DNA of 37,939 bases from Flavobacteriales bacterium (GCA_012965955.1 DTRK01000078.1:1-37939); one strand, 5' to 3'; positions 4,854 to 29,109 are shown, counted from the stretch's first letter. The notes: generated by a model from the sequence alone, not told the origin. Program-made: numbers and translations.

Positions 4854-5160
4854 GGGATTTGTATTAATGGGTTTATCAGATAGATTGCATACGTAATCAC
4901 CACCCATTGTGTTACAAAAAATATGTCGATCAACAGACACAGAATCATGCGATGATACCCAAGTTTTTTGGTCTTTTATATAAAACCGCTCTGCTCTGGC
5001 AACCCAGAGACCGAGAATAACTCTTGCATCGTGCTGGGTTGGGTGAAGATGTTCTTTCGGATTAAGGTGTTTTCCATCAGATTTTGTAACTTTGAATATA
5101 ATTTTTGTGCGCGGCCTCCAGCGAGCACCTCTTCTTATACGAACATAACAATCACGCTTT

Positions 5161-8100
5161 ATGAAGTCACTAATCTCTATGTTAATATCCGTATTACTGG
5201 CAGTAGTATTTCTTACCTCGATGTGCCAAACTACTCATGCCGCCTGTAGCGCTGGCGAAGTCGAGGTTACAATAGAGGTAGTTACCGATACCTATGGCTA
5301 TGAATGTTATTGGGAGCTGGTGCCTAGCGCCAGTCCTTGTGGTACAGGAACCATATTTACAGGTGGTAACCTTACTGTTGGATGCTCAGGTGGCTGCCTC
5401 CAGGCGCAAGATCCGAGTGGCTATGCGAACAACTCGACAATAACAGAAGGCCCGTGGTGCTTGCCCTTGGCCAACAACTATGATATTGTGTCGGTTGACG
5501 ATTGGGGAGATGGAGGAACCACATTTAACGTATACATGGATGGGGCACTTACAAACACCTTCACTGCAAGCGCTGTGTGTACCGAGACTTTTACGTTTAC
5601 AACTACATCAGCGCCCAACAACAACCTTACGATGAGCGCTGGCTTTTATAATACTTCTTCAGATTCAGCGTATATCAGATATTATACGCAAATTCCTGAA
5701 CAACAAGCAGCGGCAACTACGCTAATGTTTGGTGGCCATGTTAAGAATAATGGAGTTTTAGTACAGAACAACACGAACTTCTTTACGGACATTACGGGGC
5801 CGGTTACCTACTCCGGAAGTAGCACAGCAATCACATTGAATCCAGGCGTACAGGCTTCATTTGATATTTCAACGCCCTTTACGCCTTCTTTACAGGGTAC
5901 GTACGGTGTTACTTTCAGCACTACTTCTTCAGCTACCGACGATGTCCCGTCGGACAATTCCCTTACAGAATCCTTCATTGTGGGTGATACCACTTATGCA
6001 CGGGACAATGGCGTATCAGCTGCAACATACTGGTATGGAGCTGCAACGCTATACCATGCAGGACACAATTTTGAAGTATATGCCGCCGATACGGTGAGCT
6101 CAATATCATTGTACTTGTCATCTTTTTATTCTGCAGGCAACCCAATAAATTATCATCTTTGGGATGGTGGTCGGACCACTATCCTTGCAACAGCTACACA
6201 CATTGTTGCTGCGGGAGAACCAGACTCATGGGTGACATTGGGATTGGACAGCGGACCCTATGGCGTCGCGCCGGGTACCTACTTCGTGGGCATTGAAACC
6301 TTTACTGATACTGCTACTTATGAAGTTGACGGGACAACCAGCCCTCCAGGGGTATGCTGGGGAGACATTAATAAAGATGGTACCTGGACAGCTAATGACC
6401 AGACAATATTGTTAAGGGTCAACCTCAACTCAGCAGCTGGAGGTGGATGTAATATTTCTGCTACTACCAGTACAAGCAATGTATCTTGTAATGGAGGGTC
6501 GGATGGTTCTGCGACAGCTACTGTTACGGGTGGTACAGCTCCGTTTAACTATGTATGGACTCCAGGTGGAGGAACAACTGCCACAATCAATGGGTTGTCT
6601 GCGGGAACGTATTCGGTAGTTATAACTGATGCTGCAGCATGTGTTACTACAGGATCTGCAACCATTACAGAACCTGGCGTTTTTACTGCAACTACTACAG
6701 GTAGCAACCCATCCTTCTGTGGTGGCTCAGACGGAACCGCAATGGCAATACCAACAGGCGGGGTAAGCCCTTTTTCCTATTCCTGGGACAGCAGCACCGG
6801 GAACCAAACTACCCAGATAGCCATTGGGCTAGCGGCGGGAAATTACTCTGTCACAATTACTGACGGTAATGGCTGCACAGCCCTTGGTAGTACAGCTCTA
6901 TCAGACCCGGGTGGAACAACGCTCACAAGTTCAAGCACCGATCCAACCGCATGTGGACTAACTGATGGCACCGCAACAGTGACAGCAACAGGAGGGACTG
7001 CTCCTTATACATATGCCTGGGATGATCCAGCAAATCAAACCAATCAAATAGCAACTGGACTGAGTGGCGGTACTTTCTCCGTAACCGTTACAGATGCTAA
7101 TGGATGTACAGCAATGACGTCAGTTACACTTACTTCAGCTTCTGGACCAACTGTAAACACCACCGGAACGAATCCAACGTCATGTGGATCAACGGACGGC
7201 ACAGCAACTGCTACAGTCACAGGAGGATCTACACCGTACACCTATGCCTGGAGCTCTGGTGGAAATACATTGATAGAAACCAACTTAGGAGCAGGTACTT
7301 ACACCGTTACCGTTACCGATGCTGATGGGTGCGCCGCCACTTCCTCAACTACATTGACCTCCTCAGGAGCACCGACATTAACAACTACAGCGACCGATGC
7401 GAGTTGTTCATCACCAACTGGTACGGCTTCGGTATTTGCAACAGGAGGAACGACTCCGTACTCTTATTTATGGAGTAATGGGCAAACCTCTTCAATGGCC
7501 ACGGGACTAAGTCCGGGCTCTCATTCTGTGACGGTAACAGACAATGTGGGTTGTGCATCGATTGCTTCGGCCACGGTTGGTTCATCAGGCATAGGGCCAA
7601 CGCTGACTTTTATCACATCTAATCTGAATTGCTTTGATGATGGGAGTGGATCTGCAGCGGTTGCTGCATCAGGAGCAACATCACCATACACTTACTACTG
7701 GAGTACGGGTGCAACAACTTCGATTATCAGTGGTATGGATGCTGGGATCTACGATGTGACAGTTAGCGACAACCTGGGTTGTCAAACGATACAGTCAATT
7801 ACGCTAACGGAGCCAGCCGAAATAGTATCGATTTCTACGGTTTCGAACGCAAATTGTGGTGCTTCGGACGGTGTTGCTTCTGTGTTTTCAACAGGTGGAG
7901 TGTCACCATACAACTATCAATGGGACGCAGCCGCTGGAAATCAAACCACCGCAACAGCGACTGGTTTGAGCGCAGGCACTTATGACGTCACGACCACGGA
8001 TGCCAATGGTTGCCCAATGCCTTCACAAGTAAATGTGAGCAATATTGGAGCTCCTTCCTTAACGTTAGTGGGAGCTGATGCAGTATGTTTTAACACAAAT

Positions 8101-8778
8101 ACAGGTTCTGTTACCTCTGTAGCAAGTGGGGGAAGTGCTCCTTATACCTACTCTTGGAATACCGGGTCGAATGGAGCTAATCTATCCAATGTATCAGCTG
8201 GTACCTATACCTTGACATTGACGGATACTTCTGGATGTATCGCAATACAATCGGCAATCGTTGATGAGCCCCCTGTATTCTACGGAACCACTTCATATCT
8301 GAATGTCTCTTCTTCTTCGAGTTGCGATGGACAAGCTACTATCAGCCCATTCGGTGGAACAGGCGCTTATACCTATAGCTGGGATGATCCTGGAACACAG
8401 AGCAATGCAACCGCAATTGGGCTGTGCCTTGGCACTTATAATGTAACAGTAACAGATGCCAATGGGTGTAATTTTACCTTACCTGTCTACGTGGATTCTA
8501 TTGCCATGGGTGTAACCTCACTTGAGGCTCATCAAACAATTGAAGTGTATCCAAACCCAGCAGTAGGTACGGTAAATATTTCCTGGGATATGCCTTCCGA
8601 AGAGTTGGTAATTATACGCCTATTTGGTTTGGATGGACAAGAAATTCATAGTGCGACAATCACCGATAATGCAGCCTATGTCCATAAAGTAGAGCTTACA
8701 GGTTATGCAAAGGGACTCTATTTTATTCAGGTGGCTACCTCCAACAATTTGATCACCCATAAGTTGGTTCTCCATTAA
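5161..8778 (+). CDS. Large secreted SprB-repeat protein with T9SS type A C-terminal sorting domain
   Basis: Signal peptide MKSLISMLISVLLAVVFLTSMCQTTHA. About nine ~75-aa repeats of form (N)xxxCxxxDGxAxxxxTGGxxPYxYxW...GLxAGTYxVTVTDxxGC. CTD IEVYPNPAVGTVNISWDMP...KGLYFIQVATSNNLITHKLVLH. Confidence 0.9.
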   Translation: MKSLISMLISVLLAVVFLTSMCQTTHAACSAGEVEVTIEVVTDTYGYECYWELVPSASPCGTGTIFTGGNLTVGCSGGCLQAQDPSGYANNSTITEGPWCLPLANNYDIVSVDDWGDGGTTFNVYMDGALTNTFTASAVCTETFTFTTTSAPNNNLTMSAGFYNTSSDSAYIRYYTQIPEQQAAATTLMFGGHVKNNGVLVQNNTNFFTDITGPVTYSGSSTAITLNPGVQASFDISTPFTPSLQGTYGVTFSTTSSATDDVPSDNSLTESFIVGDTTYARDNGVSAATYWYGAATLYHAGHNFEVYAADTVSSISLYLSSFYSAGNPINYHLWDGGRTTILATATHIVAAGEPDSWVTLGLDSGPYGVAPGTYFVGIETFTDTATYEVDGTTSPPGVCWGDINKDGTWTANDQTILLRVNLNSAAGGGCNISATTSTSNVSCNGGSDGSATATVTGGTAPFNYVWTPGGGTTATINGLSAGTYSVVITDAAACVTTGSATITEPGVFTATTTGSNPSFCGGSDGTAMAIPTGGVSPFSYSWDSSTGNQTTQIAIGLAAGNYSVTITDGNGCTALGSTALSDPGGTTLTSSSTDPTACGLTDGTATVTATGGTAPYTYAWDDPANQTNQIATGLSGGTFSVTVTDANGCTAMTSVTLTSASGPTVNTTGTNPTSCGSTDGTATATVTGGSTPYTYAWSSGGNTLIETNLGAGTYTVTVTDADGCAATSSTTLTSSGAPTLTTTATDASCSSPTGTASVFATGGTTPYSYLWSNGQTSSMATGLSPGSHSVTVTDNVGCASIASATVGSSGIGPTLTFITSNLNCFDDGSGSAAVAASGATSPYTYYWSTGATTSIISGMDAGIYDVTVSDNLGCQTIQSITLTEPAEIVSISTVSNANCGASDGVASVFSTGGVSPYNYQWDAAAGNQTTATATGLSAGTYDVTTTDANGCPMPSQVNVSNIGAPSLTLVGADAVCFNTNTGSVTSVASGGSAPYTYSWNTGSNGANLSNVSAGTYTLTLTDTSGCIAIQSAIVDEPPVFYGTTSYLNVSSSSSCDGQATISPFGGTGAYTYSWDDPGTQSNATAIGLCLGTYNVTVTDANGCNFTLPVYVDSIAMGVTSLEAHQTIEVYPNPAVGTVNISWDMPSEELVIIRLFGLDGQEIHSATITDNAAYVHKVELTGYAKGLYFIQVATSNNLITHKLVLH
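6463..8510 (+). repeat. Nine tandem SprB-like repeats, protein-level
   Basis: Successive units such as CGLTDGTATVTATGGTAPYTYAWDD...GLSGGTFSVTVTDANGC and CGSTDGTATATVTGGSTPYTYAWSS...NLGAGTYTVTVTDADGC within CDS 5161..8778. Boundaries approximate. Confidence 0.85.
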
Positions 8779-9056
8779 GATCATTTTACAGGACAATCAC
8801 TCTGTCATAAGTCGGGGAAAAACTCCAAAAGTCTGGCATATATTTCGCTCAGAGCCTTCCTAAATCAACTGATAATCTCCACGATGAGAATTATCACATT
8901 GATTTTGAGTTCTTGAAAAAGAAGGGCCAATGGATGGAATTCCCAACCGGTTTCCACGGATATTTTCAATGATACCATGTTTCAGCTCTTTTCACTGTAC
9001 CGTTCCAATAAATACAGTATTTGCTTAGTTTTGCACCACACCAGTAATACCTTATC

Positions 9057-12000
9057 TTGAGATCACCATTATCAAAGAAGTCTTCATTTCTCACTTTTCT
9101 GTTGTACCTGATTTACCAGGTGTGTCTTGCCCAGCAGGTCAGCTTTCAAGTATCTTATGATGTTGGATTGCTCGATTTGTTTGCCAATGTAAAGCAGACC
9201 AATGACAACGGTTATATCATTGGTGGATCGCCCGTGAGCTTTTTGCCTCTTGGCGGATTAATCAAAACAGATACCGCGGGAGCAGTAGTATGGGCCAAAA
9301 CATACGATGAAGGATTCCTTGGACCTGCCTACTCTATCTCCGATGTTCAACAAACCATCGATGGAGGATACATTGCAACAGGCCAAATCGGTAATGGTGT
9401 AATGCTGATGAAAACGAATGCCACCGGTAGTGTTACATTTACAAAAAGGTTCGGTGGTAGCGACACGGATTACGGATCGGTCGTCAAGCAAACTTCTGAT
9501 GGAGGCTATATCATTGCAGGATCTAGCTTTAGCTTTTCCTCAAAGGACTCCGCCAATTTCTATCTGTTAAAAACCAATAGCTCTGGCACTTTGCTATGGG
9601 ATAAGGTGTATCAAATAAGCACCATCGACGATGAGAATGGCATAGCCCTGGAAGAGCTGGTGGATGGCTATCTCGTTGCTGGCTCAACCCCGCAGGTGTT
9701 TGGATCAGATACTACACGAGATGCGGTGTTAATCAAGACTAACCTCAACGGTGACGTCACCTGGGCCAGGACCTATGGATCTGACACGTATTCGGAAGAA
9801 ATATATGATGTCAAACTCATCAGTACCAACGAGATATTGATTAGCGGATATACCACTGAACCCTCAACTGGCTCAGTGAGTGATGTTTTCATAATGAAAA
9901 CGGATACCACTGGATCGGTAACGTATAGCACAAGTTATAATATCGGGTTTGAAGATTTGCCCTACTCAGTGCAAGAAACCAGCGACGGGGGCTTTGCGGC
10001 GATGGGCTGGACCATCACCAATCTATTCCCTTTGACTATAAAGACATTCTTGTTAAAGACATCCAATACCGGTACCGTTCAAATCTCTATGCAATATGGA
10101 GCGGGCATTGGATCTATATTTGGCAAGGGCGAACAAACCAGTGATGGAGGTTATGTGCTGGGCAGCATGCAGGGAAATACATCCTGGGATTTTCATCTGT
10201 ATAAAACTGACAATACCGGATCAACGGTATGTAATCAAACCAGTACCAGTGCATCCCAAAATGCCTATGTTCCACCGGCAACCACGCCTGGTGTGAGTAC
10301 TTTTTCCGGAGGTTCTACGAGTAATAGATCCGCAAGTGCCAATAACGTGACACCTACAACCACGGTACTTTGTATTAACGCTCCCTGTTCACCTGCTCCT
10401 GACCCTACGCTAACCATAACTGATGCCAATGTTTGTTTATCGGAAACAGGTGTTATCTATACCACGCAGAGTGGGTTTGACTCCTATACCTGGACCGTAA
10501 CCGGAGGTACTATTGCTTCTGGACAGGGTACCAATAGTATTACCGTTGATTGGGGAACTGGACCTAGTGGAACTGTTGATCTATTAATTGATAGCTCAGG
10601 CTGTGCTGGTAATCTAATCACAGAGAACGTAAGTATTGCTGATCCCGCCCCAACTCTCTCAGCAACTGACACTGATGTTTGCGAAGGCGAAACGAGCGTC
10701 ACATACACTACCCAAACTGGCTTTACCACCTATACATGGATAGTTGCCGGCGGAACTATTGCAAGTGGATCCGGGACTAACAGCATAACCGTGGATTGGG
10801 GGTCACCAGGTGCTGGAACAGTGAATTTAACTGTGGTGGATGCGTTTGGGTGTACCGGATCACTTTCAGCCACTGAGAACGTCACGATAAACGCAAGTCC
10901 TACTCCGACGCTGACTGTATCTGATACTGTCGTTTGTGAGGGACAAATTGGTGTTACCTATACTACTCAATCAGGTTTTTCAACATATACCTGGACGATA
11001 GGCGGAGGGACAATTGCAAGTGGTTCGGGAACCAACAGTATTACCGTGGATTGGGGTACCGGCGGAGGTGGTACTGTCGACCTAACAGTGATTGACGCAA
11101 ACGGATGTTCCGGATCACTTTCAGCCACTCAGTCAATCTTAATTAATCCCAGCCCTAACCCCACTCTAATAATCTTCGATACCATTGCATGTGAAAACCA
11201 GACAGGTGTGGTCTTTACGACCCAATCATTTTATACAGCATATATCTGGTCTATTACAGGAGGTGCTGTCAGTTCTGGTGTAGGAACGGATAGCGTCAAT
11301 GCTGATTGGTTTTCACCAGGAGGTGGAACCATTTTTTTAACGGTGGTAGATACCAATGGATGTTCAGGATCTCTTTCGTCCCCTCAATCAATTGTTATCA
11401 GCGCTAACCCTGCACCAACGCTCTCCGTTTCTGACACGGCAGTTTGTGAAAATGAGACTGGTCTAATCTATACAACCCAAGCTGGCTACACGACCTATAC
11501 CTGGACCGTTAGTGGAGGATCAATTGTCAGTGGAGCTGGCACCAATAGTATTACCGTCAACTGGGGAACTTCCGGAGGCGGAACAGTAGATTTAACGGTT
11601 GACTCAAATGGTTGTTCGGGGTCATTGTCAGCCACAGAAACCGTAAACATTTATGCTGCGCCAACAGCTAATATTACACCTTCCGACAGTACTAATTTTT
11701 GTACGGGTGATAGTGTTCAGCTCATGTCTGATACAGCTACAACTTATTTTTGGTTGCTCAATGGTGGTTCAACAGGTTTAACATCACCGGGAATTTACGT
11801 CACTGTCGCAGGAGACTATCAGGTGATAGTAACCAATACAGCAGGCTGTCCCGACACTTCCTCAATCACAACAGTCATTGAAAACCCCTCTCCAATTGCC
11901 AATATTATAGTACTAGGCTCAACAACATTCTGCTCAGACGATAGCGTAATATTACAGGCTGACACCGCCTTAACTTATTTGTGGTTTCTCAACGGTATCA

Positions 12001-13880
12001 GCACTGGACAAACCACCCAAACCATCACAGTTGCTGGAGCTGGAGATTATCAGGTTGCAATCTCAAATGCATTTTGCCAGGACACTTCAGCTATAGTAAC
12101 CGTGGCCGTGAATGCTATCCCAACAATTGATACCTCAGCAACAATCATTGATTCCAGTAATTGCGGAAACAGCGATGGGTCAATTACGGTAATCGTGGCC
12201 AATGGCACTGGACCGTTCACGTATGAATGGACCAATAGCTCCAGTACAGTTGTGGGTGGAGACTCTGCTAAACTGGTGAACATGCCTGCGGATTCCTATA
12301 CGCTCGTAATTACAGACTCACTTGGATGTACAGCTTCAAGCACATTCACCATCAACGATATTGGCGCACCTCCAACGCCAGTCGCCTCTGCTGATGCAAG
12401 TTATTGCCAGGGCGATCCAATTGCTGATTTGACAGCTGCAGGATCAGGAGGAACGTTAATCTGGTATTCGGACGCACTGCTCACCGACTCCATTGGCACG
12501 GGATCACCATTCTCTTCAGGCGCCATAGTATCAGATACCTTTTACGTAGCAGAGACCATTGCCGGCTGTGAAGGTCTGGCAGATATGGTAATCATTACCA
12601 TTAATGCAACTCCAGCTCAACCTGTGGCAGGAGCTGACAGCACCTATTGCCAGGGAGACGTCATAGCTGATCTTACCGTTACTGGTGGTGGCGGAATTTT
12701 CACCTGGTATTCTGATCCAGCGCTAACGACTTCAATTGGAACAGGCAGCCCATTCTCATCAGGAATAACTGTTACTGATACGATCTTTGTGACCGAGGAA
12801 GTGGGAGGATGTGAGAGCATTCCAGACACGGTAATTATCACTTTCATCAACGCACCTATTGGTCTGACGACTGGAGGAGATTCCAGCTATTGCCAGGGAG
12901 ATGCAGTTGCCGATCTTACAGCAACGGGATCAGGTGGAATAATCACATGGTACTCCAACAGTGGGCTAACAGACACGGCTTTCACCGGCTCACCTTTTGC
13001 ATCAGGTGCCTTTACTGATACCACCTTTTATGTGACCGAAACCTCAAATGGATGTGCAAGTGCAACTGACTCAGTAACCCTGACCTTCACACCCCAGCCA
13101 ACGGTTGTTCTCACATCTAGTGCTGATACAATTTGTCCTGGAGGGGATGTGACACTAACAGCTAACGGAGCAGATTCATATCTATGGAGCACGGGTGATA
13201 CTGCTGTATCTATAACTGTCAGTCCGATTATAAATACTGTCTACACCGTAATTGGAATGACAATGGCTGGATGCACGAGCGCAGCGGATACAACAACGGT
13301 AAGCATAAGCGCTGGAGGAGTAGTTGCCGGATTTACGGCCAATCCAACCACTGGAAGCATTCCTTTGGACGTTGCGTTCACGGATACTAGCATCGGAGCA
13401 GTATCATGGGCTTGGGATTTCTCTTATGACAGCATATTCTTCAATACTGAATCAACCGACCAGAATCCAAATTACACATACACTACCGGAGGAAATTTTC
13501 AAATAATCCTGGTAGCCTCTGACGCCAATGGTTGTTCTGATACGGCATCGATGACCCTGAACTTGGATATAACCGAGGAAGTCTTTATACCAAACTTATT
13601 CACCCCGAATGGAGATAACAGTAATGATGTTCTTTATGTGCGGGGAAATGGAATCGACGATCTGTTGCTGATAATCTATGACCGCTGGGGCGAGAAGGTA
13701 TATGAGGGCGCATACTCTCAGGCATGGGCCTTGGAAGACACATATCCCACGGGTATAGGTTGGGATGGTACATTCAATGATCAGCCGATGAACCCAGCTG
13801 TGTTTGTATATGTTCTAACAGGGACATTTATAAGTGGTGAAGCGATCGATCAGAAGGGAAACATAACATTAGTTAGATGA
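9057..13880 (+). CDS. Giant secreted adhesin-like protein: N-terminal QTSDGGYI-type propeller repeats, five PKD-like repeats, Ig-like modules, PKD, and gliding-motility-associated C-terminal domain (CHU_C / T9SS type B)
   Basis: TTG start; signal-like N-terminus MRSPLSKKSSFLTFLLYLIYQVCLAQQ. Repeats QTSDGGYIIAGS...LLKTNSSGTLLWDK and YTTQSGFxTYTWTVxGGTIASGxGTNSITVDWG. C-terminus VFIPNLFTPNGDNSNDVLYVRGNGIDDLLLIIYDRWGEKVYEG...GWDGTFNDQPMNPAVFVYVLTGTF is a classic CHU_C signature. Confidence 0.92.
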   Translation: MRSPLSKKSSFLTFLLYLIYQVCLAQQVSFQVSYDVGLLDLFANVKQTNDNGYIIGGSPVSFLPLGGLIKTDTAGAVVWAKTYDEGFLGPAYSISDVQQTIDGGYIATGQIGNGVMLMKTNATGSVTFTKRFGGSDTDYGSVVKQTSDGGYIIAGSSFSFSSKDSANFYLLKTNSSGTLLWDKVYQISTIDDENGIALEELVDGYLVAGSTPQVFGSDTTRDAVLIKTNLNGDVTWARTYGSDTYSEEIYDVKLISTNEILISGYTTEPSTGSVSDVFIMKTDTTGSVTYSTSYNIGFEDLPYSVQETSDGGFAAMGWTITNLFPLTIKTFLLKTSNTGTVQISMQYGAGIGSIFGKGEQTSDGGYVLGSMQGNTSWDFHLYKTDNTGSTVCNQTSTSASQNAYVPPATTPGVSTFSGGSTSNRSASANNVTPTTTVLCINAPCSPAPDPTLTITDANVCLSETGVIYTTQSGFDSYTWTVTGGTIASGQGTNSITVDWGTGPSGTVDLLIDSSGCAGNLITENVSIADPAPTLSATDTDVCEGETSVTYTTQTGFTTYTWIVAGGTIASGSGTNSITVDWGSPGAGTVNLTVVDAFGCTGSLSATENVTINASPTPTLTVSDTVVCEGQIGVTYTTQSGFSTYTWTIGGGTIASGSGTNSITVDWGTGGGGTVDLTVIDANGCSGSLSATQSILINPSPNPTLIIFDTIACENQTGVVFTTQSFYTAYIWSITGGAVSSGVGTDSVNADWFSPGGGTIFLTVVDTNGCSGSLSSPQSIVISANPAPTLSVSDTAVCENETGLIYTTQAGYTTYTWTVSGGSIVSGAGTNSITVNWGTSGGGTVDLTVDSNGCSGSLSATETVNIYAAPTANITPSDSTNFCTGDSVQLMSDTATTYFWLLNGGSTGLTSPGIYVTVAGDYQVIVTNTAGCPDTSSITTVIENPSPIANIIVLGSTTFCSDDSVILQADTALTYLWFLNGISTGQTTQTITVAGAGDYQVAISNAFCQDTSAIVTVAVNAIPTIDTSATIIDSSNCGNSDGSITVIVANGTGPFTYEWTNSSSTVVGGDSAKLVNMPADSYTLVITDSLGCTASSTFTINDIGAPPTPVASADASYCQGDPIADLTAAGSGGTLIWYSDALLTDSIGTGSPFSSGAIVSDTFYVAETIAGCEGLADMVIITINATPAQPVAGADSTYCQGDVIADLTVTGGGGIFTWYSDPALTTSIGTGSPFSSGITVTDTIFVTEEVGGCESIPDTVIITFINAPIGLTTGGDSSYCQGDAVADLTATGSGGIITWYSNSGLTDTAFTGSPFASGAFTDTTFYVTETSNGCASATDSVTLTFTPQPTVVLTSSADTICPGGDVTLTANGADSYLWSTGDTAVSITVSPIINTVYTVIGMTMAGCTSAADTTTVSISAGGVVAGFTANPTTGSIPLDVAFTDTSIGAVSWAWDFSYDSIFFNTESTDQNPNYTYTTGGNFQIILVASDANGCSDTASMTLNLDITEEVFIPNLFTPNGDNSNDVLYVRGNGIDDLLLIIYDRWGEKVYEGAYSQAWALEDTYPTGIGWDGTFNDQPMNPAVFVYVLTGTFISGEAIDQKGNITLVR
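10390..11660 (+). repeat. Five tandem PKD-like repeats inside the giant adhesin-like gene
   Basis: Units (PxPTLxxxDTxVCExxxGVxYTTQSGFxTYTWTVxGGTIASGxGTNSITVDWGxxGGGTVDLTVxDxNGCSGSLSATxxVxI). Also a 20-nt exact DNA repeat CCGGATCACTTTCAGCCACT in two adjacent units. Confidence 0.85.
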
Positions 13881-14947
13881 TGAATTTGACAAGTTGTTCG
13901 CTAAACCGTCTTATGACGATTGTTGTAATAATATTCTTAGTTCTTCCTTTTACCATAAGCCGAGCTCAAGACTACCATTTCTCGCAATATAGCTCTACCC
14001 CTCTTGCTATCAACCCAGCTTATGCTGGAACATATGGAGGTACACACCGCATCATCTTGAATTATAAGGACCAGTGGAAAGCGTTTGGAGCCCCTTATAA
14101 AACGTATGCCTTTTCTTATGATTTTGTCTTGTTTAAAGATAAGTGGGATAATATGACCCTGGCTGGAGGCCTGCTCTTAACCCAAGACGAAGCTGGATAT
14201 ACTAATTTCAGAAACACCAATGTATCGCTTACCGCAGCGAGCATGATAAAGCTGAATGATCACCATGCGGCGTCAGCAGGTTTACAAGGTGGTTTTGCTC
14301 AGCGATCAATTGACTTAACGGAGGCTACTACGGATAATCAATTCGATAATGGCACTTATAGTTCAACCAACAATCTTGGTGAAACGAATTCATTCGGGAG
14401 TCAGTCAAACGGAGATTTCACTGCTGGAGTGTCCTGGATGTTTACCAAGAACACCAAAAATAGATTTGCAGAAGACCAGATCAAGGCTCGCATTGGTATT
14501 GCACTGTATCACTTAAACAGGCCGCCGCAAGAGTTCTATGATCTCAATGACAGCAGACTCTATTCCAAATTCAGTATCAACGGGGAAGGGTATATTGGAC
14601 TTAAAGGATCGCGTTTAGGCTTGGTTCCGTCATTCTTATTCGCAAATCAAGGTCCCACAAAGGAAATCCTGGTCGGTTCTATGTTTCGATATCGAATTAA
14701 AGAAGGCGGAATTACCAAGGGATTACCTCAGGAGGCAGGTGTGGCTATTGGTGGTTATGCGAGATTTGGTGATGCATTCATCCCAGCATTTACGCTTGAG
14801 ATTGCCAATTTTGTTTTGGGAATTTCTTACGATGTAAATATGTCTGACCTCAAAACTTCTACAGGTGGACAAGGTGGCCTAGAGGTATCTCTCAAGTTTG
14901 TCAATCCCAATCCATTCATTAGAGCCAAAACTTCGACTCTGCTCTAG
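13877..14947 (+). CDS. PorP/SprF family type IX secretion system membrane protein
   Basis: MMNLTSCSLNRLMTIVVIIFLVLPFTISRAQDYHFSQYSSTPLAINPAYAGTYGGTHRIILNYKDQWKAFGAPYKTYAFSYD is a canonical PorP/SprF N-terminus. ATGA overlap with the preceding CHU_C gene. Confidence 0.93.
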   Translation: MMNLTSCSLNRLMTIVVIIFLVLPFTISRAQDYHFSQYSSTPLAINPAYAGTYGGTHRIILNYKDQWKAFGAPYKTYAFSYDFVLFKDKWDNMTLAGGLLLTQDEAGYTNFRNTNVSLTAASMIKLNDHHAASAGLQGGFAQRSIDLTEATTDNQFDNGTYSSTNNLGETNSFGSQSNGDFTAGVSWMFTKNTKNRFAEDQIKARIGIALYHLNRPPQEFYDLNDSRLYSKFSINGEGYIGLKGSRLGLVPSFLFANQGPTKEILVGSMFRYRIKEGGITKGLPQEAGVAIGGYARFGDAFIPAFTLEIANFVLGISYDVNMSDLKTSTGGQGGLEVSLKFVNPNPFIRAKTSTLL

Positions 14948-15444: not shown

Positions 15445-16482
15445 CTACTTTGCAAACGACTCTTTCAAGTAGGTGAGGTATTTCGAAAAATCGCCAGCAA
15501 AACTGCTATCAAATTCTTCCTGGAACATGTTCTGCTTTCCCCGATAGCGTTTGAAACTCATAAAATAAGTGTTGTTGGGTATATAATCCAGGTCCAGGAG
15601 ATAGGAATAACTATCGCTCCCATGAAAGGAAATAGTATCAGAACTTTGCAGAATTGACCTGATGAGTTCATTCTTGAGTGCCCTCTTTTTTCCCTCAGGG
15701 TATGACGCTCCCACAAAGCCTCTATAAAGTTCTTCAAGAAGGGCGGTGCCCCTTGTCATGTGATCACTGTATTTCTCTATGTCATTCAGGGCTCCTATAT
15801 ATCGCTCCAGCTCGATTGAATTCTCCCCAAACTTGTGCTTCATGAATACTATTGCACCATTGTCACCAACGAAGGTAGCCAGGTTTTCATTGAATGCATC
15901 CTCCCCTTTCACATAAAGGGTTCCATGGGTCAGCTCATGAATGACCAGCCTAGCCAATCCCCCTGACGACTTCCTTAACATATTGGATAGGATAGGGTCA
16001 TTGAAGAAACCCAAGGTGGACCAGGCGTTGACGGCACCGAGATCCGTGTCAAAGTCCAGGGCTATTAGCTCCTCCTCTTCCCTAAGCGCTTTCTCCTTGA
16101 CAAAAAATCCTTTATACCCGAGTCCTCCCAGGAACGGAAAATACCATTCGTATTGCTCCAACTCAAAAGGTTTGGCGGCTGTGAGGACCCACAGCGCTGG
16201 TTCCCCTTTCTGGTCATATAATTTCTTGTAACTCTCCGAGTTATTGAGTCCCAGTGAATCTATCGCGAACTCCCGTATCTCCTGAATGAGACGCAACTTC
16301 ACCTTTTGATCCTCCGGATAATCAGGATCATCTAACAGCTCATTAATAGGAACGGCATCGTAAAGAATATGGAACTGTCCTATCCCCTGGTGGATTCCAT
16401 ACTCAATCAAGTCTCCATACAGCAAACCGCCAATCAGAGAGACCAGCAGTGCCGCATAGATGAACTTATTCCGTCTTCTCAT
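15445..16482 (-). CDS. Putative aminopeptidase (Aminopep / PF10023-like), membrane-anchored
   Basis: N-terminal TM segment MRRRNKFIYAALLVSLIGGLLYG. Zinc-protease motif RLVIHELTHGTLYVKGEDAFNENLATFVGDNGA; preceding LGAVNAWSTLGFFNDPILSNML typical of this family. Confidence 0.82.
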   Translation of the reverse strand: MRRRNKFIYAALLVSLIGGLLYGDLIEYGIHQGIGQFHILYDAVPINELLDDPDYPEDQKVKLRLIQEIREFAIDSLGLNNSESYKKLYDQKGEPALWVLTAAKPFELEQYEWYFPFLGGLGYKGFFVKEKALREEEELIALDFDTDLGAVNAWSTLGFFNDPILSNMLRKSSGGLARLVIHELTHGTLYVKGEDAFNENLATFVGDNGAIVFMKHKFGENSIELERYIGALNDIEKYSDHMTRGTALLEELYRGFVGASYPEGKKRALKNELIRSILQSSDTISFHGSDSYSYLLDLDYIPNNTYFMSFKRYRGKQNMFQEEFDSSFAGDFSKYLTYLKESFAK

Positions 16483-16486
16483 AGAA

Positions 16487-18007
16487 CTACGGATCTATAA
16501 TCCTTCCCCGCACCTGGGGTAAAGAAACAGCGGCTTCTTCACTGACCACACCATCCGCAAAGTCTTGCACCTGGCTCAATCCAACAAGTTCGAGATCCAC
16601 AAAATCAGATCGATTGAGCATGGTTCCCTTTTTTTTCAGCTTGACCAGGAACATTCTATCAATAACCTCGAATGCGTAAATAGGGGAATTGGGAATGAAC
16701 ACATACCAGGAGGTATCGCCTTTCAAAACAATCCTCCGAACCAGTACACCTGATACAGGTAAAGATTGCTGAAATGACTCAAGTTCCGCATCCCCGCTGG
16801 GATCACATGTGACATATATCGTTTCACCAGTATAATTCTCACTTTGCCCAATTTTGGGAATCAAAAAGGCCATTATGTTTTTCGGCATTTGTATGGGAGC
16901 GATATATCCTTGAATCAATTTGAAGTTCTCGAAGCTGACTGCCAGATACAGGACCATGTAAACATTGAACAACCATGACTGTATAAGAAAATGATTGGCG
17001 GCACTCTTTCCGTAGAGCAAGAAATAGGCGATATATGCCACATTGAAGATTGCTACCAGGCCCAATATGATCTTGTACTTGAACGAGGAGCTGTTCAACC
17101 TGACTGTCCGGTCAAAGAAAGATGATATGTTTATAAGATTGTTCTTCATTGTTACCCACAGGTGAATGCAGAACAATAGAAAGAGTGTCGTGATCAGGTA
17201 AAACTGCTGCGCAATTGGGTTGATGAGCCAGAAATCATAAAACCCATGACCCAAAGCGGCAAGCGCGAGAAAGATCGGGAGGGCATAATTCTTCCAGGCA
17301 TAGTTCCGGTGCTTCGCAATTGCCATACCGTAGCATATAATGGAGGTGAAGAACATATGAGCAACAGATGCGTAAAGGGCCCTTCCGTACACAGCAGTGA
17401 GGTTACTCCCGTAGATGTACTGGATATTCTCTATAAACGCGAATCCCAAGGCGGAAACCGAACCATACAAGATATAATCAAATGGTTCGTCCACCTGATC
17501 TGTAACTTTCAGTATTATCAAGAATGGAATAATTTTAACGATCTCTTCTACCAGGCCAATGGCAATTACACAATACCACCAGTCGTTCCAGAAGTTTCCG
17601 TTCAGTTCAAAATTCAGTGATTGCTCAATAGCGTCTGTCATCGGATACACCAGGAAGATGGTCGCACAGGACATCAGGAAAGTCCAGAAGATAAAAATCA
17701 GGCGCTCGTGCTCAAAGATATCCAGCCATGTCAGGTATTGGTACCACATCAGGGAAATTGCAAAAGACAGCAACACGCTTATTACATATAGTGTCTCATC
17801 CCCACCAGTATCCAGTGATCGTCCAAATGTTGAGAAATTCACATATAAGAGCGGCAATATTACGAGGATGGCAAACCACAAGGTCTCATAAAATTTCTCT
17901 GATGCAAGGAAAGTATCCAGCTCTCCTGCCTTCTTCCAGGCCCCGATAAGGTCTCTGAACCAGTACTGTACAAACAACAAAGAAATAGCGATTGTGAGAA
18001 ACCCCAT
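16487..18007 (-). CDS. PrsW-like intramembrane metalloprotease with C-terminal soluble extension
   Basis: Polytopic membrane protein with GLVEEIVKIIPFL, GFAFIENIQYIYG, ASVAHMFFTSIICYG and ALGHGFYDFWL, matching the PrsW EEhhK / ENhhY / HxxxT / HGFYD motifs. Confidence 0.85.
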   Translation of the reverse strand: MGFLTIAISLLFVQYWFRDLIGAWKKAGELDTFLASEKFYETLWFAILVILPLLYVNFSTFGRSLDTGGDETLYVISVLLSFAISLMWYQYLTWLDIFEHERLIFIFWTFLMSCATIFLVYPMTDAIEQSLNFELNGNFWNDWWYCVIAIGLVEEIVKIIPFLIILKVTDQVDEPFDYILYGSVSALGFAFIENIQYIYGSNLTAVYGRALYASVAHMFFTSIICYGMAIAKHRNYAWKNYALPIFLALAALGHGFYDFWLINPIAQQFYLITTLFLLFCIHLWVTMKNNLINISSFFDRTVRLNSSSFKYKIILGLVAIFNVAYIAYFLLYGKSAANHFLIQSWLFNVYMVLYLAVSFENFKLIQGYIAPIQMPKNIMAFLIPKIGQSENYTGETIYVTCDPSGDAELESFQQSLPVSGVLVRRIVLKGDTSWYVFIPNSPIYAFEVIDRMFLVKLKKKGTMLNRSDFVDLELVGLSQVQDFADGVVSEEAAVSLPQVRGRIIDP

Positions 18008-22732: not shown

Positions 22733-24253
22733 ATGAAAATAATGTGGAGCCTGCTAATTTGCCTTGTTATCGCCCTACCCTCTTTCTCCACGGGAGATGG
22801 AGATGAAAAGCTACGCCTGGCAATTCTCTACTTTGATAATTCAGGCGATAGCGAGAAACTGCAAATGCTTCGCAAGGGAATGGCGGATATGCTCATTACC
22901 GATTTATCCAAGGTTAAGAGTCTTGATATTGTGGAGCGTGCCAGATTGGAGGAGATTATGAAGGAGCAAGAAATGTCCAACTCAAAAAGCTTTGACAACA
23001 ATACTGCTGTTTCGATGGGTAAACTGCTGGGAGCAGAGACCATTCTCACCGGATCGTTCTTTGAAATGATGGGTACACTGCGTGTAGACGCACGCTTTAT
23101 AGATGTTGAAACCGGCAAAATATTGAAATCAGACGGTGTACAAGGCTTGGTTAGCGACTTCTTTACTCTGGAGAAGGACCTGGTTGATAAGATCATTGTG
23201 AATTTGGAATTAAAACTTACCGATGATGAGAAAGCATACCTTAAACTAAATCGGGAAGGCGAGCAATTAAGTTATGAGGATGCACTGACATTCTCTGAGG
23301 GCTTGGACCTCATGGATTTGGGCAAGAAAGATAAAGCCAGGGCCAAATTTGAAGCAGTATTGACAAAGCATCCAAAATTTGAGCCCGCCAATAATGCTAT
23401 CGCTAAATTAAATGAAGCTCCTGTCGTTGTTGCGAGCTCTGAAGTCAAACCAGCAAAGGTAATGAGGGGTACTGGAGACCCGCTGAAAGGACTCAATGTA
23501 TCCAAATCCCTATCTAATAATGATATTGGGAAATACTATGCACTCATCATAGGCATTGATCAGTATAGCGGAGAATGGACCAAGCTAAACAACGCAGTGA
23601 ATGACGCAACTACTATCGAAAAAACGTTGAAGGCCAATTATCGATTTGACGAGTTCCAAACATTATATAACTCTGAAGCAACGCGATCTGCAATTATGAA
23701 AAAACTAGAGTGGTTGGTGAACAATGTAAAAGAGGAAGACAATGTATTCATCTATTATTCAGGCCACGGAGAATTCAAAAAGTCGATGAATAAAGGATAT
23801 TGGGTACCTCAGGATTCGAGGACTAAGTCGGTGTCGGAATATATTTCCAACAGTGATATACAAACGTTTTTAGGTGGCATTAAATCCAGGCACACACTCC
23901 TGGTATCTGACGCCTGTTTTAGTGGTGACATTTTCCGTGGCTCTACGGTATCTGTTCCGTTTTCTGATACTGAGAAGTACTATGAAAAGGCATACAGTCT
24001 GCGCTCCAGACATGCGATTACCTCAGGCGGCATAGAGCCTGTAATGGACGGAGGCAAAGACAATCATTCCGTATTTGCCTACTACTTGCTGAAAGTATTG
24101 AAGAGCAATGACAAGAAATACCTGGATGCCTCTCAGCTATATGAGGGCTTAAAAATACCTGTGATCAACAACTCGGAACAGTCGCCGAACTTCAGCCCCA
24201 TTAAGAACACCGGAGACGAAGGCGGACAGTTTATCTTTATCCGTAAGACTTGA
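22733..24253 (+). CDS. CsgG/FlgO-like domain protein with C-terminal caspase (peptidase C14) domain
   Basis: Signal peptide; KLRLAILYFDNSGDSEKLQMLRKGMADMLITDLSKVKSLDIVERARLEEIMKEQE...LLGAETILTGSFFEMMGTLRVDARFIDVETGKIL (CsgG-like). KYYALIIGIDQYSGEWTKLNNAVNDATTIEKTL...DNVFIYYSGHGEF...HTLLVSDACFSGDIF (caspase His/Cys dyad). Confidence 0.9.
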   Translation: MKIMWSLLICLVIALPSFSTGDGDEKLRLAILYFDNSGDSEKLQMLRKGMADMLITDLSKVKSLDIVERARLEEIMKEQEMSNSKSFDNNTAVSMGKLLGAETILTGSFFEMMGTLRVDARFIDVETGKILKSDGVQGLVSDFFTLEKDLVDKIIVNLELKLTDDEKAYLKLNREGEQLSYEDALTFSEGLDLMDLGKKDKARAKFEAVLTKHPKFEPANNAIAKLNEAPVVVASSEVKPAKVMRGTGDPLKGLNVSKSLSNNDIGKYYALIIGIDQYSGEWTKLNNAVNDATTIEKTLKANYRFDEFQTLYNSEATRSAIMKKLEWLVNNVKEEDNVFIYYSGHGEFKKSMNKGYWVPQDSRTKSVSEYISNSDIQTFLGGIKSRHTLLVSDACFSGDIFRGSTVSVPFSDTEKYYEKAYSLRSRHAITSGGIEPVMDGGKDNHSVFAYYLLKVLKSNDKKYLDASQLYEGLKIPVINNSEQSPNFSPIKNTGDEGGQFIFIRKT

Positions 24254-26346
24254 GGGTGCTTTACCACAACATTGTCAGATCCAGCCTCAAACTCCTACTG
24301 GCACTGAGCCTTATCGCTCCACATTCGGCCTGGGCGGAGAAGACCATTGCCATTTCTTATTTCGACAATACTTCAGGAGATGTCAGGTTCAACCCTCTCT
24401 CTAAGGGAATTGCAGATATGCTGATCACCGATCTCTCTAAAATCCCGGAAGTGAATATTGTTGAAAGAGAAAAATTGGAGAAACTGCTACAAGAAATTGA
24501 GCTGGGTAGTTCCAAGTATTTCGATCAGAAGACAGCTCAAAAATTGGGTAAAGGATTAGGCGCGGAAGCCATACTCACCGGAGCCTTTTTGGTTCTGGAT
24601 GAACAGCTACGCATCGACGCGCGTTTGGTGGATGTTGCTTCGGGAAATATCCTGACCGCCGAGTCCGTGTCTGGCAGCAAAGATGATTTTTTCGCCTTGC
24701 ATGCAAAGCTTGTTCAGCTACTGGTCAAGGAGCTTAAAATGGATTACAAAGCAGGTGCCGGAGCCAAAGCAAAGAATGTCACGCTGGATGCGGTGGTTGA
24801 CTACTCTACCGCCATCGACTATTACGACAAAGGACTATCCGCTGATGCGAGTGCCATATTGGCCAGTACCGTTAAAAATAATCCCGGATTTACCTTTGCA
24901 AAGAACAGGCTTGAAGCCATAAAACAGTGGCTGGTAGATATTGAAGCTGAACGGGAGCGCCTAATCCAGGAGGAGACAAAAAAACTACTGTCCAATCTGG
25001 ACACTGAAAATGCCCAGGTAGGACAACAGATAAACCAGATATGGACGTCCATGATGACAGCTCAAGCATATAGCAAGATCATCGCTATCAACAAACAGCT
25101 GGCACAGAAGAGCCTGTCTGACGATTTCAGAATATATGGAGAAGCGTCGCCAATTACATTTGGTGAGATGCGATACTTTTACGATGCCTTTTCTTTTTAC
25201 ATGTTGAAGGACTACAACAACACCCTCCTCGCTGGCGAAGCCTTTATCAAGCGGTATCCTATTAGCATGTACTTCGCGGGAGTCAAGGCCAATATGGATC
25301 AGTCCATTGCGGAACTTGAAGCTCGGGAGAAAGGCAAAGCGGTAATCAATGAGCGCCTGCAATATGCCGAATTTGAAACATATGTCAATAAATTTGACTG
25401 GATGAATTCACGCTGGCGACTTGATTATATGAGTAGGGAAATGTACGAAAATTACAAGGCAATCTTCATCAAACGCATCTTCAACTTCGGCGACAAATTG
25501 CTGATTGCATATATAAATGCAGGGGGTGAAGAAGCAGATGAACTACTTGAGTTCAAGGGTGTGGCAATGCATTTTCTGGATGAAGATTTGATGCGGAAGA
25601 TCAGTGAAAAGGCCATTGCAATTTACAGCGAGACGAGCATGGAGGAAAAAGGCTATCAGATTGAAGAATCGATAGATCGCGATTTGGCGGAGATCCAGAA
25701 AACCAACGCAACCGTTGAGGAAGCACGCTCCTCAATGAAGAGTGCCCAGCCTGAAGAACTGCTGCGAATGGTAAAGCACTTTCGCAATTTGTCGAAGGGC
25801 CTGGATTGGCAGCTGTTGCTGGACATCAGCACGAAGTTTATCAAGTTACCATTTGATGAAAAGAATGCTAATTACCTCCGAACGGCTTGGGAAATGCAGG
25901 TCGTAGCTCTCGCCCATCTCCGCAGGCTTGACGATGCAAAAAAGCAGCTTGAGGCCTATAAGGTGGTCAAGGAACTCAATGATCCAGACCCTAAAAAACA
26001 CACTAAGTCCTATCGGGATTTGCGTTCCACGCTCAGCGAGGCGAAGAAATCCATTGCTTCGGCAGATCAAAATGTGCTGCCCCTGGCCATCTACCGCTCC
26101 AGGGCGGAGATATACCGTTACAGCCATCAATTCGTGGATGAAGCTTACACGAGAAGGGCGATGTTAGACAAGTTAGAGCTTGATGAAGATCAGGGGAGCC
26201 AACAATTGTTCATGCTATTAACAGCTTACAGTAACCTGGGGTATTTCGATAAGGCCAGGGCGGTGGCCAAGGAACTCAAGACTAAGTATCCTACAGGGAG
26301 TTACACGGATAGTGTGGATTCAATGTTGAAATATATGCCTCAATAA
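24250..26346 (+). CDS. CsgG/FlgO-like domain protein with long TPR/helical C-terminal region
   Basis: EKTIAISYFDNTSGDVRFNPLSKGIADMLITDLSKIPEVNIVEREKLEKLLQE...LGAEAILTGAFLVLDEQLRIDARLVDVASGNIL is paralogous to the upstream CDS. TTG start overlaps the upstream TGA (TTGA). Confidence 0.88.
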   Translation: MRVLYHNIVRSSLKLLLALSLIAPHSAWAEKTIAISYFDNTSGDVRFNPLSKGIADMLITDLSKIPEVNIVEREKLEKLLQEIELGSSKYFDQKTAQKLGKGLGAEAILTGAFLVLDEQLRIDARLVDVASGNILTAESVSGSKDDFFALHAKLVQLLVKELKMDYKAGAGAKAKNVTLDAVVDYSTAIDYYDKGLSADASAILASTVKNNPGFTFAKNRLEAIKQWLVDIEAERERLIQEETKKLLSNLDTENAQVGQQINQIWTSMMTAQAYSKIIAINKQLAQKSLSDDFRIYGEASPITFGEMRYFYDAFSFYMLKDYNNTLLAGEAFIKRYPISMYFAGVKANMDQSIAELEAREKGKAVINERLQYAEFETYVNKFDWMNSRWRLDYMSREMYENYKAIFIKRIFNFGDKLLIAYINAGGEEADELLEFKGVAMHFLDEDLMRKISEKAIAIYSETSMEEKGYQIEESIDRDLAEIQKTNATVEEARSSMKSAQPEELLRMVKHFRNLSKGLDWQLLLDISTKFIKLPFDEKNANYLRTAWEMQVVALAHLRRLDDAKKQLEAYKVVKELNDPDPKKHTKSYRDLRSTLSEAKKSIASADQNVLPLAIYRSRAEIYRYSHQFVDEAYTRRAMLDKLELDEDQGSQQLFMLLTAYSNLGYFDKARAVAKELKTKYPTGSYTDSVDSMLKYMPQ

Positions 26347-26397: not shown

Positions 26398-26421
26398 GCC
26401 CCTGTACAGTGGAACAGGGGC
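26398..26421 (+). terminator. Hairpin between convergent genes, candidate terminator
   Basis: Perfect 8-bp inverted repeat GCCCCTGT-acagtgga-ACAGGGGC followed by TTACTTTTC, directly abutting the stop codon of the minus-strand gene at 26422. Confidence 0.5.
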
Positions 26422-27921
26422 TTACTTTTCAACCGTCAGCATATACTCCGCTACCGCCATCCTCGTCTCCTCTGACAGGTAGTTCTGAGGTGGCATCTCA
26501 GGATAGTTCTCCCGCCTGCGGATCGGGTTGGTAATATAATCCACAATGCCCTGGGGATTGTTGTTGTATATCGCCTGGAGGTCTCTGGTTGGAGGGCCAA
26601 TCATCCTGATACCATATGCATGGCAACCTGAACATACTCCATAAAAGGTGAGTTTCCCCTTCTCCTCGGCTGATATATCTCTAGGAGGCACCGGTTCGGC
26701 CAGCATATAAGACTTCACGGCAATGGATGTCCGCACCTGACATTGGCCGTAATCTTCCAGACCAAAGGTGCGGTACTTGTTTTTGTCCAGGATACAACCG
26801 CCACTACCTCCTCCAAAGTGGATGATATCTGGTCCTTTGGATTCCATTTGCGTAGCCATCAATGCTTTCAACTGCCCCCCGGGATCATTACCGTTGTTGC
26901 TCATAAAGTTATCGAGGATTACCAATCGGTCGGGATTAGGCTCCGATTCCGGATCTGTGGCCACATTGGCAACCAGGGTCAGATCTGTGATCGTGATGCC
27001 TGCATTATTATTTCCTGTAATGATATTTCCTTCCAAAGTCACATCGTCTGCAGCCATTATCAATATTCCGGTTCCCTGTGGAATTCCTGATACAATAGAT
27101 CCGGGTGCAGCGAAATTCTCGAGGTTGTTATCCACCACAAAGTTGTTTCGAACAATAATATCAAAGCAAGTTTTGATCGGCAGCCCAGGAGTGATAAAGA
27201 CCAGAAGCCCTCCCGTGTTGTTGTGGGTATAATTGTTCTCCACCAGGCAGTGTCTGGAATTTTCAATCTCAATTCCCGCAACGCTTTCATAGGTCTCATT
27301 GTGTAACACATCAATGTTGTCACACATGCCCACGTAAATTGCAGCATCTTCAATTCCCGACAGCACATTGTGTTCTACCAGACCGTTCTTTCCAAACTCA
27401 GGGAATATCCCATACACCCCGGCATCTACCACCCAGTTATTGCGAATGACGAAGTTATTTCCCGCCTGGCCCATTATTCCATTGCCCTTGTAATTGATGA
27501 TCTTAAAATTCTCTATTATGATGCCATTACCAGAGTAGAGAAACCCGTCGTTCAACTCTTTCCCCCCATCCAATGTGGGCCATTCCCCCTCAATGATGAT
27601 TCCCTGAAAGCTAATGTCATCCTTGTCGATGTACACGGTTTCCCTGTAGCTACCAGGATAAACCCTGATTAAGTCTCCAGGGTTCGCTTTTTTCACGGCA
27701 TCCTGAATCTTATCCCCATTGCGGACCTCTATGATCTCACCTTTAAATCCTGCCAGTGCAGTATCCGCTCCTGCCAGGCCAGGGGTGTAACCACCTTGAG
27801 CTTCGTACAACTTAACTGGAGTGAGTGCAGTGGATGTCGGTTTGCTCTTAAAAAGAAACTTTCCAGCTAGTATTCCGACAGCCAACAAGACCAGCCATAT
27901 CATCAGCATTTTCCATTTCAT
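26422..27921 (-). CDS. Right-handed parallel beta-helix (NosD/PbH1-like) protein with C-terminal cytochrome c domain
   Basis: Repeats such as GIIIENFKIINYKGNGIMGQAGNNFVIRNNWVVDAGVYGIFPEFGKNGLVEHNVLSGI. C-terminal heme motif FYGVCSGCHAYGIRMIGPPTRDL. Confidence 0.87.
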   Translation of the reverse strand: MKWKMLMIWLVLLAVGILAGKFLFKSKPTSTALTPVKLYEAQGGYTPGLAGADTALAGFKGEIIEVRNGDKIQDAVKKANPGDLIRVYPGSYRETVYIDKDDISFQGIIIEGEWPTLDGGKELNDGFLYSGNGIIIENFKIINYKGNGIMGQAGNNFVIRNNWVVDAGVYGIFPEFGKNGLVEHNVLSGIEDAAIYVGMCDNIDVLHNETYESVAGIEIENSRHCLVENNYTHNNTGGLLVFITPGLPIKTCFDIIVRNNFVVDNNLENFAAPGSIVSGIPQGTGILIMAADDVTLEGNIITGNNNAGITITDLTLVANVATDPESEPNPDRLVILDNFMSNNGNDPGGQLKALMATQMESKGPDIIHFGGGSGGCILDKNKYRTFGLEDYGQCQVRTSIAVKSYMLAEPVPPRDISAEEKGKLTFYGVCSGCHAYGIRMIGPPTRDLQAIYNNNPQGIVDYITNPIRRRENYPEMPPQNYLSEETRMAVAEYMLTVEK

Positions 27922-27933
27922 GGGTAGTGTGTT

Positions 27934-29109
27934 CTATTTATTTTCATTTCTTACCAATCCTGGCTTTAATCCAGAAGGCAATCTTTGTGGGATCTGGGGC
28001 ATAAACCCCTCATCCGTTAGCGTCTCCAGGAAATCTACCAGGCGATCCAACTCTCGATCGCTGAGATCAGGTTCCCAGATGTGCCAGTGCAATTTCAAAT
28101 CCTCACCTTCAGGTACAGCATGGCCCCTGCCCTTGGTGTAAAAGGCTACTGTTTCCTTCAGCGTTTCAAAGGTGCCAGAATGCATATAAGGAGCGGTACG
28201 GGCCACATTCCTGAGGCTAGGCACCTTAAATCCCGCACGAAACTTAGGATCTGCATATGTCTTTTGTGCGCCTTGGTCCAGTGGGAGACCATCTGGCTCG
28301 GGTGTACCCAGCACCGCCACTTGCTGATTGGTAAACAACGGCGGCGTATGACACTCTGCACAGCGTGCAACAAAGGAGCGGAAGATGTTCAACCCCTCAA
28401 TCTCATTTTCGTTGAGCGCCTCATGATATCCATGTGCATAGTGGTCGTAGCGGCTATTGAGTGAAACCAGTGACGACTCAAATGCCGTGATGGCTGTGTG
28501 TACATCTTGTACGCGAATATCTTTTTGCGCTGACGGGAATGCGTCAGCAAACAAGCGACGATACGCTGGAATATTATTCAATGTAGCAGCCAGTTTCGCC
28601 GGAGTGTTACCCATCTCCTCCGCCGAATAAAGCGGTCCTTGCATCTGCTCCTCAAGCGTAGAAGCTCTGGCGTCCCAAAACAACGACTGTAAAAATGCTA
28701 CGTTCCAAAGGCTCGGTGCACCTCTTTGCACTATTGCCCCATCCATTCCAACTGCCCTGCCTTTGCCATCGCTAAAGCCATAATTGGGATCGTGGCAGCT
28801 ACTGCAAGCCAGGGATCCGTCAACAGATAAGACCGGGTCAAAAAACAAGTAACGACCTAGGTCAATTTGTTGGGGACTGAACCCATCACGTATTGCAGGA
28901 AGTCCTGTTTTCAACCCGCCCACTCCACTGCCCCGCAAGGATTCGTACTGCTGGTACATATTTCTGCACTTGCAGGCATTATCGTCGGTAAGTTCAAAAC
29001 CGGGAGGGCAATGCGACGCGAGTATTATCTGTTCGCTATCGCTTTGCACAGTTGGCGAAATAGCAATAATTGTAATAGCCAGGATGGTTATCACTCGAGC
29101 GGTTCGCAT
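27934..29109 (-). CDS. Diheme cytochrome c peroxidase (CCP/MauG family)
   Basis: Two CxxCH motifs (LACSSCHDPNYGFSDG; FVARCAECHTPPLFTN); LGRYLFFDPVLS; RGAPSLWNVAFLQSLFWDARASTLEEQ; FKVPSLRNVARTAPYMHSGTFETLKE. Confidence 0.95.
   Translation of the reverse strand: MRTARVITILAITIIAISPTVQSDSEQIILASHCPPGFELTDDNACKCRNMYQQYESLRGSGVGGLKTGLPAIRDGFSPQQIDLGRYLFFDPVLSVDGSLACSSCHDPNYGFSDGKGRAVGMDGAIVQRGAPSLWNVAFLQSLFWDARASTLEEQMQGPLYSAEEMGNTPAKLAATLNNIPAYRRLFADAFPSAQKDIRVQDVHTAITAFESSLVSLNSRYDHYAHGYHEALNENEIEGLNIFRSFVARCAECHTPPLFTNQQVAVLGTPEPDGLPLDQGAQKTYADPKFRAGFKVPSLRNVARTAPYMHSGTFETLKETVAFYTKGRGHAVPEGEDLKLHWHIWEPDLSDRELDRLVDFLETLTDEGFMPQIPQRLPSGLKPGLVRNENK

Follow-up and report, generated by a model that had tools for sequence, protein, structure and literature searches.

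Results

We examined a 37,939-nucleotide stretch of DNA from a Flavobacteriales bacterium (DTRK01000078.1, assembly GCA_012965955.1; hereafter the window), in which two plus-strand genes encode proteins with a CsgG-like domain behind a predicted hydrophobic export signal at the N-terminus. Gene 1 (P0001; 22733-24253, 506 aa, ATG start) carries, in order, a predicted Sec signal peptide with no lipobox (approximately residues 1-20, 22733-22792; a hydrophobic segment, Kyte-Doolittle 2.8), a CsgG-like/TolB-N/LpoB-type alpha/beta domain without pore segments (residues 26-165, 22808-23227; assigned by Pfam, AF2, Foldseek and alignment with E. coli CsgG), TPR-like helices (residues ~180-226, 23270-23410; helices in the AF2 model and a CpoB TPR domain profile match at 4.7e-6), a linker motif, M-RGTGDPLKGLNV (residues 244-256, 23462-23500), and a caspase (C14) domain (residues 266-505, 23528-24247), which could be aligned with the metacaspases 4f6o and 4afr. 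The codon of Arg245, the proposed autocleavage P1 residue within the motif, lies at 23465-23467, those of the catalytic His345 and Cys395 at 23765-23767 and 23915-23917, and Asp291 and Asp393 are the predicted S1 aspartates. Gene 2 (P0002; 24250-26346, 698 aa, TTG start) encodes a signal peptide, a CsgG-like domain (residues ~31-164) and a long helical C-terminus, with no caspase.

An initial annotation had described the two genes as an operon-like pair of paralogues, one of them fused to a caspase, and much of this description held. Both N-termini match the Pfam CsgG family (2.1e-14 for gene 1, 5.4e-15 for gene 2) and share 38% identity over residues 13-233, while the gene 1 caspase (Peptidase_C14, residues 269-487, 1e-20) retains both residues of the dyad, making gene 1, with its N-terminal hydrophobic signal, a predicted exported caspase. 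The TTG start of gene 2 overlaps the stop of gene 1 by 4 bp, an arrangement repeated in both congeneric genomes and consistent with an operon. The C-terminus of gene 2, described as helical/TPR, is indeed long and helical, but its TPR character is weak (only TPR_14, at 5e-4); similarly, the hairpin noted 3' of the pair is present as sequence (8 pairs, 26398-26421, plus strand, between convergent genes) and is a possible terminator, but terminator-like sites around the pair are in no excess over shuffled sequence (5 vs 4.0). Beyond this pair, no further CsgG matches were found in the assembly (3.1 Mb, 316 contigs).

Elsewhere in the window we observed a T9SS-type surface cluster (5161-14947; an SprB-repeat protein with a Por secretion tail, a PKD/Ig protein with a CHU_C tail, and PorP/SprF), a PrsW-family intramembrane metalloprotease (16487-18007, minus strand) adjoining a putative aminopeptidase (15445-16482, minus strand), and a right-handed beta-helix protein with a C-terminal cytochrome c domain (26422-29109, minus strand) beside a MauG/MbnH-like di-heme enzyme.

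Using P0001 as query, we found that residues ~240-505 were matched many times per genome, at 62-73% identity and behind unrelated upstream sequence. Residues 244-505 thus form a multi-copy cassette, which also occurs elsewhere in the same genome. We defined the cassette family as the 72 members with at least 60% cassette identity; as no more than six candidates were scored in each genome, copy numbers per genome are lower bounds, and they reach at least seven. In these copies the motif is followed by a short spacer of low conservation and then by the caspase, ending GDEGGQFIFIKK (GDEGGQFIFI(R/K)K across the set). The cassette forms the protein C-terminus in 97% (70/72) of members, and therefore offers no space to a T9SS tail. 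Two members alone extend past the caspase, those encoded at L045 6313-8985 (plus strand), where the extension includes repeated helix-hairpin-helix (HHH_3) units, and at L039 1-2361 (plus strand).

The sequence in front of the cassette is far more diverse, with about 15 kinds of signal-peptide-bearing N-termini, among them CsgG, WD40, LRR, ankyrin, ankyrin with a C-terminal HHH tail, Sel1, DUF2846 and coiled coil; Reg_prop, SBBP, PQQ-like and DUF5122 propellers; WG repeats, PEGA lipoproteins, Glucodextran_B/Ig-like domains and a 3-keto-disaccharide hydrolase; and, in a 309-aa member, a bare signal peptide joined directly to the cassette. In one further protein (L059) we read the N-terminus as barrel-like. 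A hydrophobic N-terminal export segment was detected, by hydrophobicity, in 69 of the 72 proteins, the remaining three being cut by contig ends, and the linker before the motif is rich in proline (9.3% vs 2.9% in the N-terminal domains). Gene 1 is one of about 15 exported architectures with a common caspase cassette, a wider setting than the CsgG-caspase fusion in which it was first framed, and the fold, export and modularity of the family are well supported.

The family occurs in ~28 of the 395 genomes sampled from the class Bacteroidia (one of them, G018, represented by a fragment only), and was not detected in the other classes sampled. Among orthologues within one N-terminal class, cassettes are mostly 80-97% identical and N-termini more divergent, while cassettes within one genome average ~64-74% identity. 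The cassette tree groups mostly by N-terminal class, with LRR and ankyrin fusions split. Within-genome sister cassettes occur in G021 and G004; those of G021 (support 100/100) belong to an ankyrin protein and a protein with no recognised domain and, together with the split LRR and ankyrin fusions, they point to repeated re-fusion of cassettes. Tandem cassette genes with unlike N-termini were found at five loci (L044, L056, L061, L120 and L140). Concerted evolution or gene conversion need not be invoked, as cassette trees mostly follow N-terminal class, the sisters of G021 and G004 excepted, and mobility by phage or plasmid was discarded after viral-contig scans and phage and plasmid searches returned distant caspases only.

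The caspase itself is predicted to be of metacaspase type. Metacaspase structures were matched by profile at an E-value of 2e-12, and His345 and Cys395 are retained in every cassette that has sequence at these positions (71/71; one gap for each residue). Asp291 and Asp393 are invariant in 72/72 cassettes as well as in six relatives that lack the motif, and align with Asp95 and Asp211, the S1 residues of TbMCA2 (PMC4357240), which predicts a specificity for arginine or lysine at P1.

An RG[ST]GDPLKGLN motif precedes the caspase in all 72 members, minor variants included (Gly246 is lost in one member, and a few carry one-residue deletions). Its full form is (Y/M/F/L/T)-R-G-(S/G/T)-G-D-P-(L/M)-K-G-L-N-(V/I), with Arg245 kept in 72/72 and conservation reaching Asn255, 10 residues further on. 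The residue before Arg245 is hydrophobic or aromatic in most members, and information content falls sharply upstream. Searching six family genomes with RGxGDPxKG returned 21 sites, all of them preceding cassettes, compared with no match for the reversed-pattern control; these genomes thus contain no trans substrates bearing the motif. Motif codons vary among the 21 sites, implying selection on the protein. Neither P0002 nor, in their periplasmic juxtamembrane portions, the SpoIIE partners described below showed a conserved Arg/Gly cleavage-like site.

The six motif-less relatives (L147, L148 and L185-L188) are 53-64% identical to the cassette; L185-L188 (~57-64%) come from other classes of the phylum and follow Ig-like/Glucodextran_B domains. 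Comparing the 72 cassettes with these six, we found that motif residues are the only fixed differences, catalytic and S1 residues being common to both sets. Because of this, a substrate site of the attached enzyme is a better fit for the motif than a co-evolved docking groove, and we propose that the caspase may cleave itself after Arg245.

A rather unlikely alternative, though the best of those considered here, is that RGSGDPLKGLN is a docking or latching segment that folds back on the caspase, places Arg245 in the S1 pocket and thereby holds the enzyme inactive until the sensor draws the segment off. Clan CD enzymes offer precedents, as the N-terminal region of their pro-forms often blocks the active site (TbMCA2, and RgpB with an arginine; PMC4357240), and conservation of the motif over 10 residues past the arginine would suit such a role. 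However, one would expect a dedicated docking site and its segment to evolve together, and no caspase-core position changed together with the motif, while the hydrophobic P2 and the disordered-type linker upstream resemble a cleavage site. An AF2 model of the cassette, built from three sequences, had a pLDDT of 42.7, too low to place the motif relative to the active site. We favor autocleavage, adding that the motif may also bind something, since its conservation far exceeds what a cleavage site needs.

The genes around the cassettes suggest where such a cut might be read. At 16% (11/68) of loci the cassette gene has a same-strand SpoIIE neighbor no more than 100 bp away; these loci represent at least four N-terminal classes (seven WD40 and two DUF5122 propeller loci, with WG and ankyrin), and two further SpoIIE genes lie at 540 and 727 bp. 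Most of these neighbors are Reg_prop-Y_Y_Y-SpoIIE proteins of ~1,100 aa for which a single membrane segment is predicted. Most genomes contain 14-47 SpoIIE genes (87 in G104), and by our estimate chance adjacency would yield less than one case, although related loci are not independent; as 7 of the 11 loci belong to the single WD40 class, the association may reflect one ancestral arrangement. No SpoIIE gene adjoins the window pair. WD40 cassette members in seven genomes lie near T9SS PorP/SprF and CHU_C proteins.

These neighborhoods favor signalling over death as the role of the family. That its members are instead envelope proteases for programmed death, development or the killing of prey or competitors, with no tie to phosphatase signalling, seems to us improbable: cell death is the role widely proposed for prokaryotic caspases (PMC3501461) and the PADLOC caspase model does match P0001, but the pair has no other PADLOC match, the proteins are directed out of the cytoplasm, the neighbors are of signalling or T9SS type, and the spread is chromosomal and patchy, at up to at least seven copies per genome, with no phage or close plasmid copies. 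A known anti-phage defence system was likewise set aside, as no complete PADLOC system was present and the generic caspase model matched alone.

Turning to the N-terminal half of gene 1, alignment with E. coli CsgG (NP_415555.1) revealed that P0001 and P0002 lack ~23 residues between the last two core strands of the domain and a second, shorter stretch after them, where CsgG has its membrane hairpins, and that neither protein has a lipobox cysteine. Structure prediction recovered the alpha/beta fold of the CsgG/TolB-N/LpoB superfamily (AF2, six sequences, pLDDT 83.1). Foldseek placed the CadC periplasmic domain first (2.8e-6), followed by TolB (~5e-6), GNA1162, LpoB (3e-5) and then CsgG (9.6e-5) and PelC, with probability 1.00 to CadC, TolB, LpoB and CsgG, and CsgG was not among the matches of a PDB profile search with the P0001 N-terminus. 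The suggestion of an outer-membrane secretion pore is thus not supported, whereas an alpha/beta domain of the periplasm that belongs to the TolB-N/LpoB/CsgG superfamily and forms no pore is well supported. That gene 1 encodes a CsgG-type pore of the outer membrane bearing a caspase is highly improbable, for although CsgG appears among the Pfam matches of both proteins and the Foldseek matches, the pore segments and lipobox are missing, CadC, TolB and LpoB fit better, and the same cassette is also joined to about 15 other, non-pore domains.

The pair is kept beyond the strain, in three congeneric genomes, in family f16 and, in a form without the caspase, in family f21. Both congeneric genomes show the same gene order and 4-bp overlap (L033 6790-8310/8307-10406; L032 1113-2633/2630-4723); gene 1 orthologues at L027/L028 share 77% identity, and gene 2 has orthologues in G001 and G002 and further copies in f16 and f21. 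Within f16, the pair of G131 lies on two separate contigs, and in G064 (L204) a CsgG-caspase gene with a stop inside the caspase precedes a CsgG-helical gene. This gene (4648-5937, minus strand) has an in-frame TGA soon after the 'GGIEP' of the caspase, and is either a pseudogene or an assembly error. In f21 (G104 and G220) the helical partner is retained and the first gene encodes a DUF4145-TM-CsgG protein that stops approximately where the cassette would start, followed by TPR-SpoIIE genes within ~11 and 6 bp. The products of these first genes (L206 5343-6665 and L207 5504-6823, both minus strand) have a CadC-like topology, and each gene is accompanied by one for a CsgG-helical protein and by a TPR-SpoIIE gene. 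As f21 has the pair without the caspase and G006 has the CsgG-caspase gene without its CsgG-helical partner, the caspase is a unit that can be separated from the CsgG-like pair.

Discussion

The export signals, intact dyad, cassette modularity, motif invariance and SpoIIE neighborhood of this family are features of the sequences themselves. On this basis we propose, with about even confidence for and against, that gene 1 belongs to a multi-copy family of exported sensor-proteases that cut themselves after Arg245 and relay envelope signals; for the cassette family as a whole, envelope signalling is moderately supported. The variable N-terminal domain would sense something in the periplasm, the presumed site of action, either by itself or in complex with P0002, the CsgG-like paralogue, whose part in the process we infer. 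For gene 1 this sensor half would be the CsgG-like alpha/beta domain with its TPR-like helices, resembling the periplasmic sensor of CadC, and the effector would be the nearly constant C-terminal metacaspase-type caspase with its predicted preference for Arg/Lys at P1. The two halves are joined by a proline/glutamate-rich linker ending (Y/M/F)-Arg-Gly-Ser-Gly-Asp-Pro-Leu-Lys-Gly-Leu-Asn. A stimulus would activate the caspase, which would cut after the motif arginine, in cis or in trans, and this cut would free or switch on the protease, which would then attack envelope proteins in their periplasmic portions. For several lineages, the protein encoded beside the caspase gene would be the likely output: a propeller/Y_Y_Y sensor anchored in the membrane and bearing a SpoIIE (PP2C) phosphatase on the cytosolic side.

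The closest known relatives are the orthocaspases (MEROPS C14B; PMC3501461, PMC6426788), which share the C14 fold, His-Cys dyad and predicted Arg/Lys P1, fusions to interaction repeats (WD40, Sel1, TPR) and high copy number. Bacterial metacaspase architectures are diverse, with possible signal peptides, and 28 are found in the Bacteroidete Haliscomenobacter (PMC3501461). In contrast to orthocaspases, the cassette family has an export signal in every complete copy, a caspase that is nearly always C-terminal, a fixed RGSGDPLKGLN linker, and CsgG, WG, PEGA and propeller fusions, of which CsgG goes unmentioned in the orthocaspase surveys consulted. In the literature searched, whose coverage is partial, we found neither a CsgG fusion nor a linker motif of this kind, nor any exported caspase family with multiple sensors, and we regard the family as a new form of orthocaspases, apparently undescribed in that literature.

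More distant systems share single aspects of this design. In gingipain RgpB and the MARTX cysteine protease domain, both of clan CD, N-terminal regions likewise control the protease, and RgpB, which autoprocesses after arginines in its pro-region, also provides a precedent for an N-terminal arginine in the active site (PMC4357240); however, these belong to other families (C25 and C80, respectively) and do not have swappable sensor domains. Polymorphic toxin systems (PMC3482391) also shuffle a C-terminal module, but there the effector varies, whereas in the cassette family the effector is constant, the N-terminus varies and no immunity gene was recognised. Finally, the P0001 N-terminal domain shares its fold with the CadC periplasmic domain, TolB-N, LpoB, GNA1162 and CsgG, and, as in CadC, its alpha/beta part is followed by helices; unlike members of this superfamily, P0001 has no DNA-binding domain, peptidoglycan-synthase activator or pore part, and is joined to a protease.

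Considering the family more broadly, we tentatively raise the possibility, which we rate below the proposal for gene 1, that some Bacteroidia operate a combinatorial periplasmic protease relay, in which one caspase serves a wide range of envelope sensors, attached to each by a universal self-cleavage tag, RG|SGDPLKGLN, and propeller/Y_Y_Y-SpoIIE phosphatases detect its cuts and pass the signal across the inner membrane. The role of bacterial caspases is a long-standing question, usually framed in terms of programmed cell death. With its constant effector, its many interchangeable sensors, a candidate self-cleavage site that never varies and a phosphatase gene often alongside, the exported family provides a directly testable alternative, namely envelope signalling by limited proteolysis, and the motif is a ready tag for finding all family members and possibly their substrates. 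If true, the relay would represent caspase-based outside-in signalling in bacteria, rather than a death pathway.
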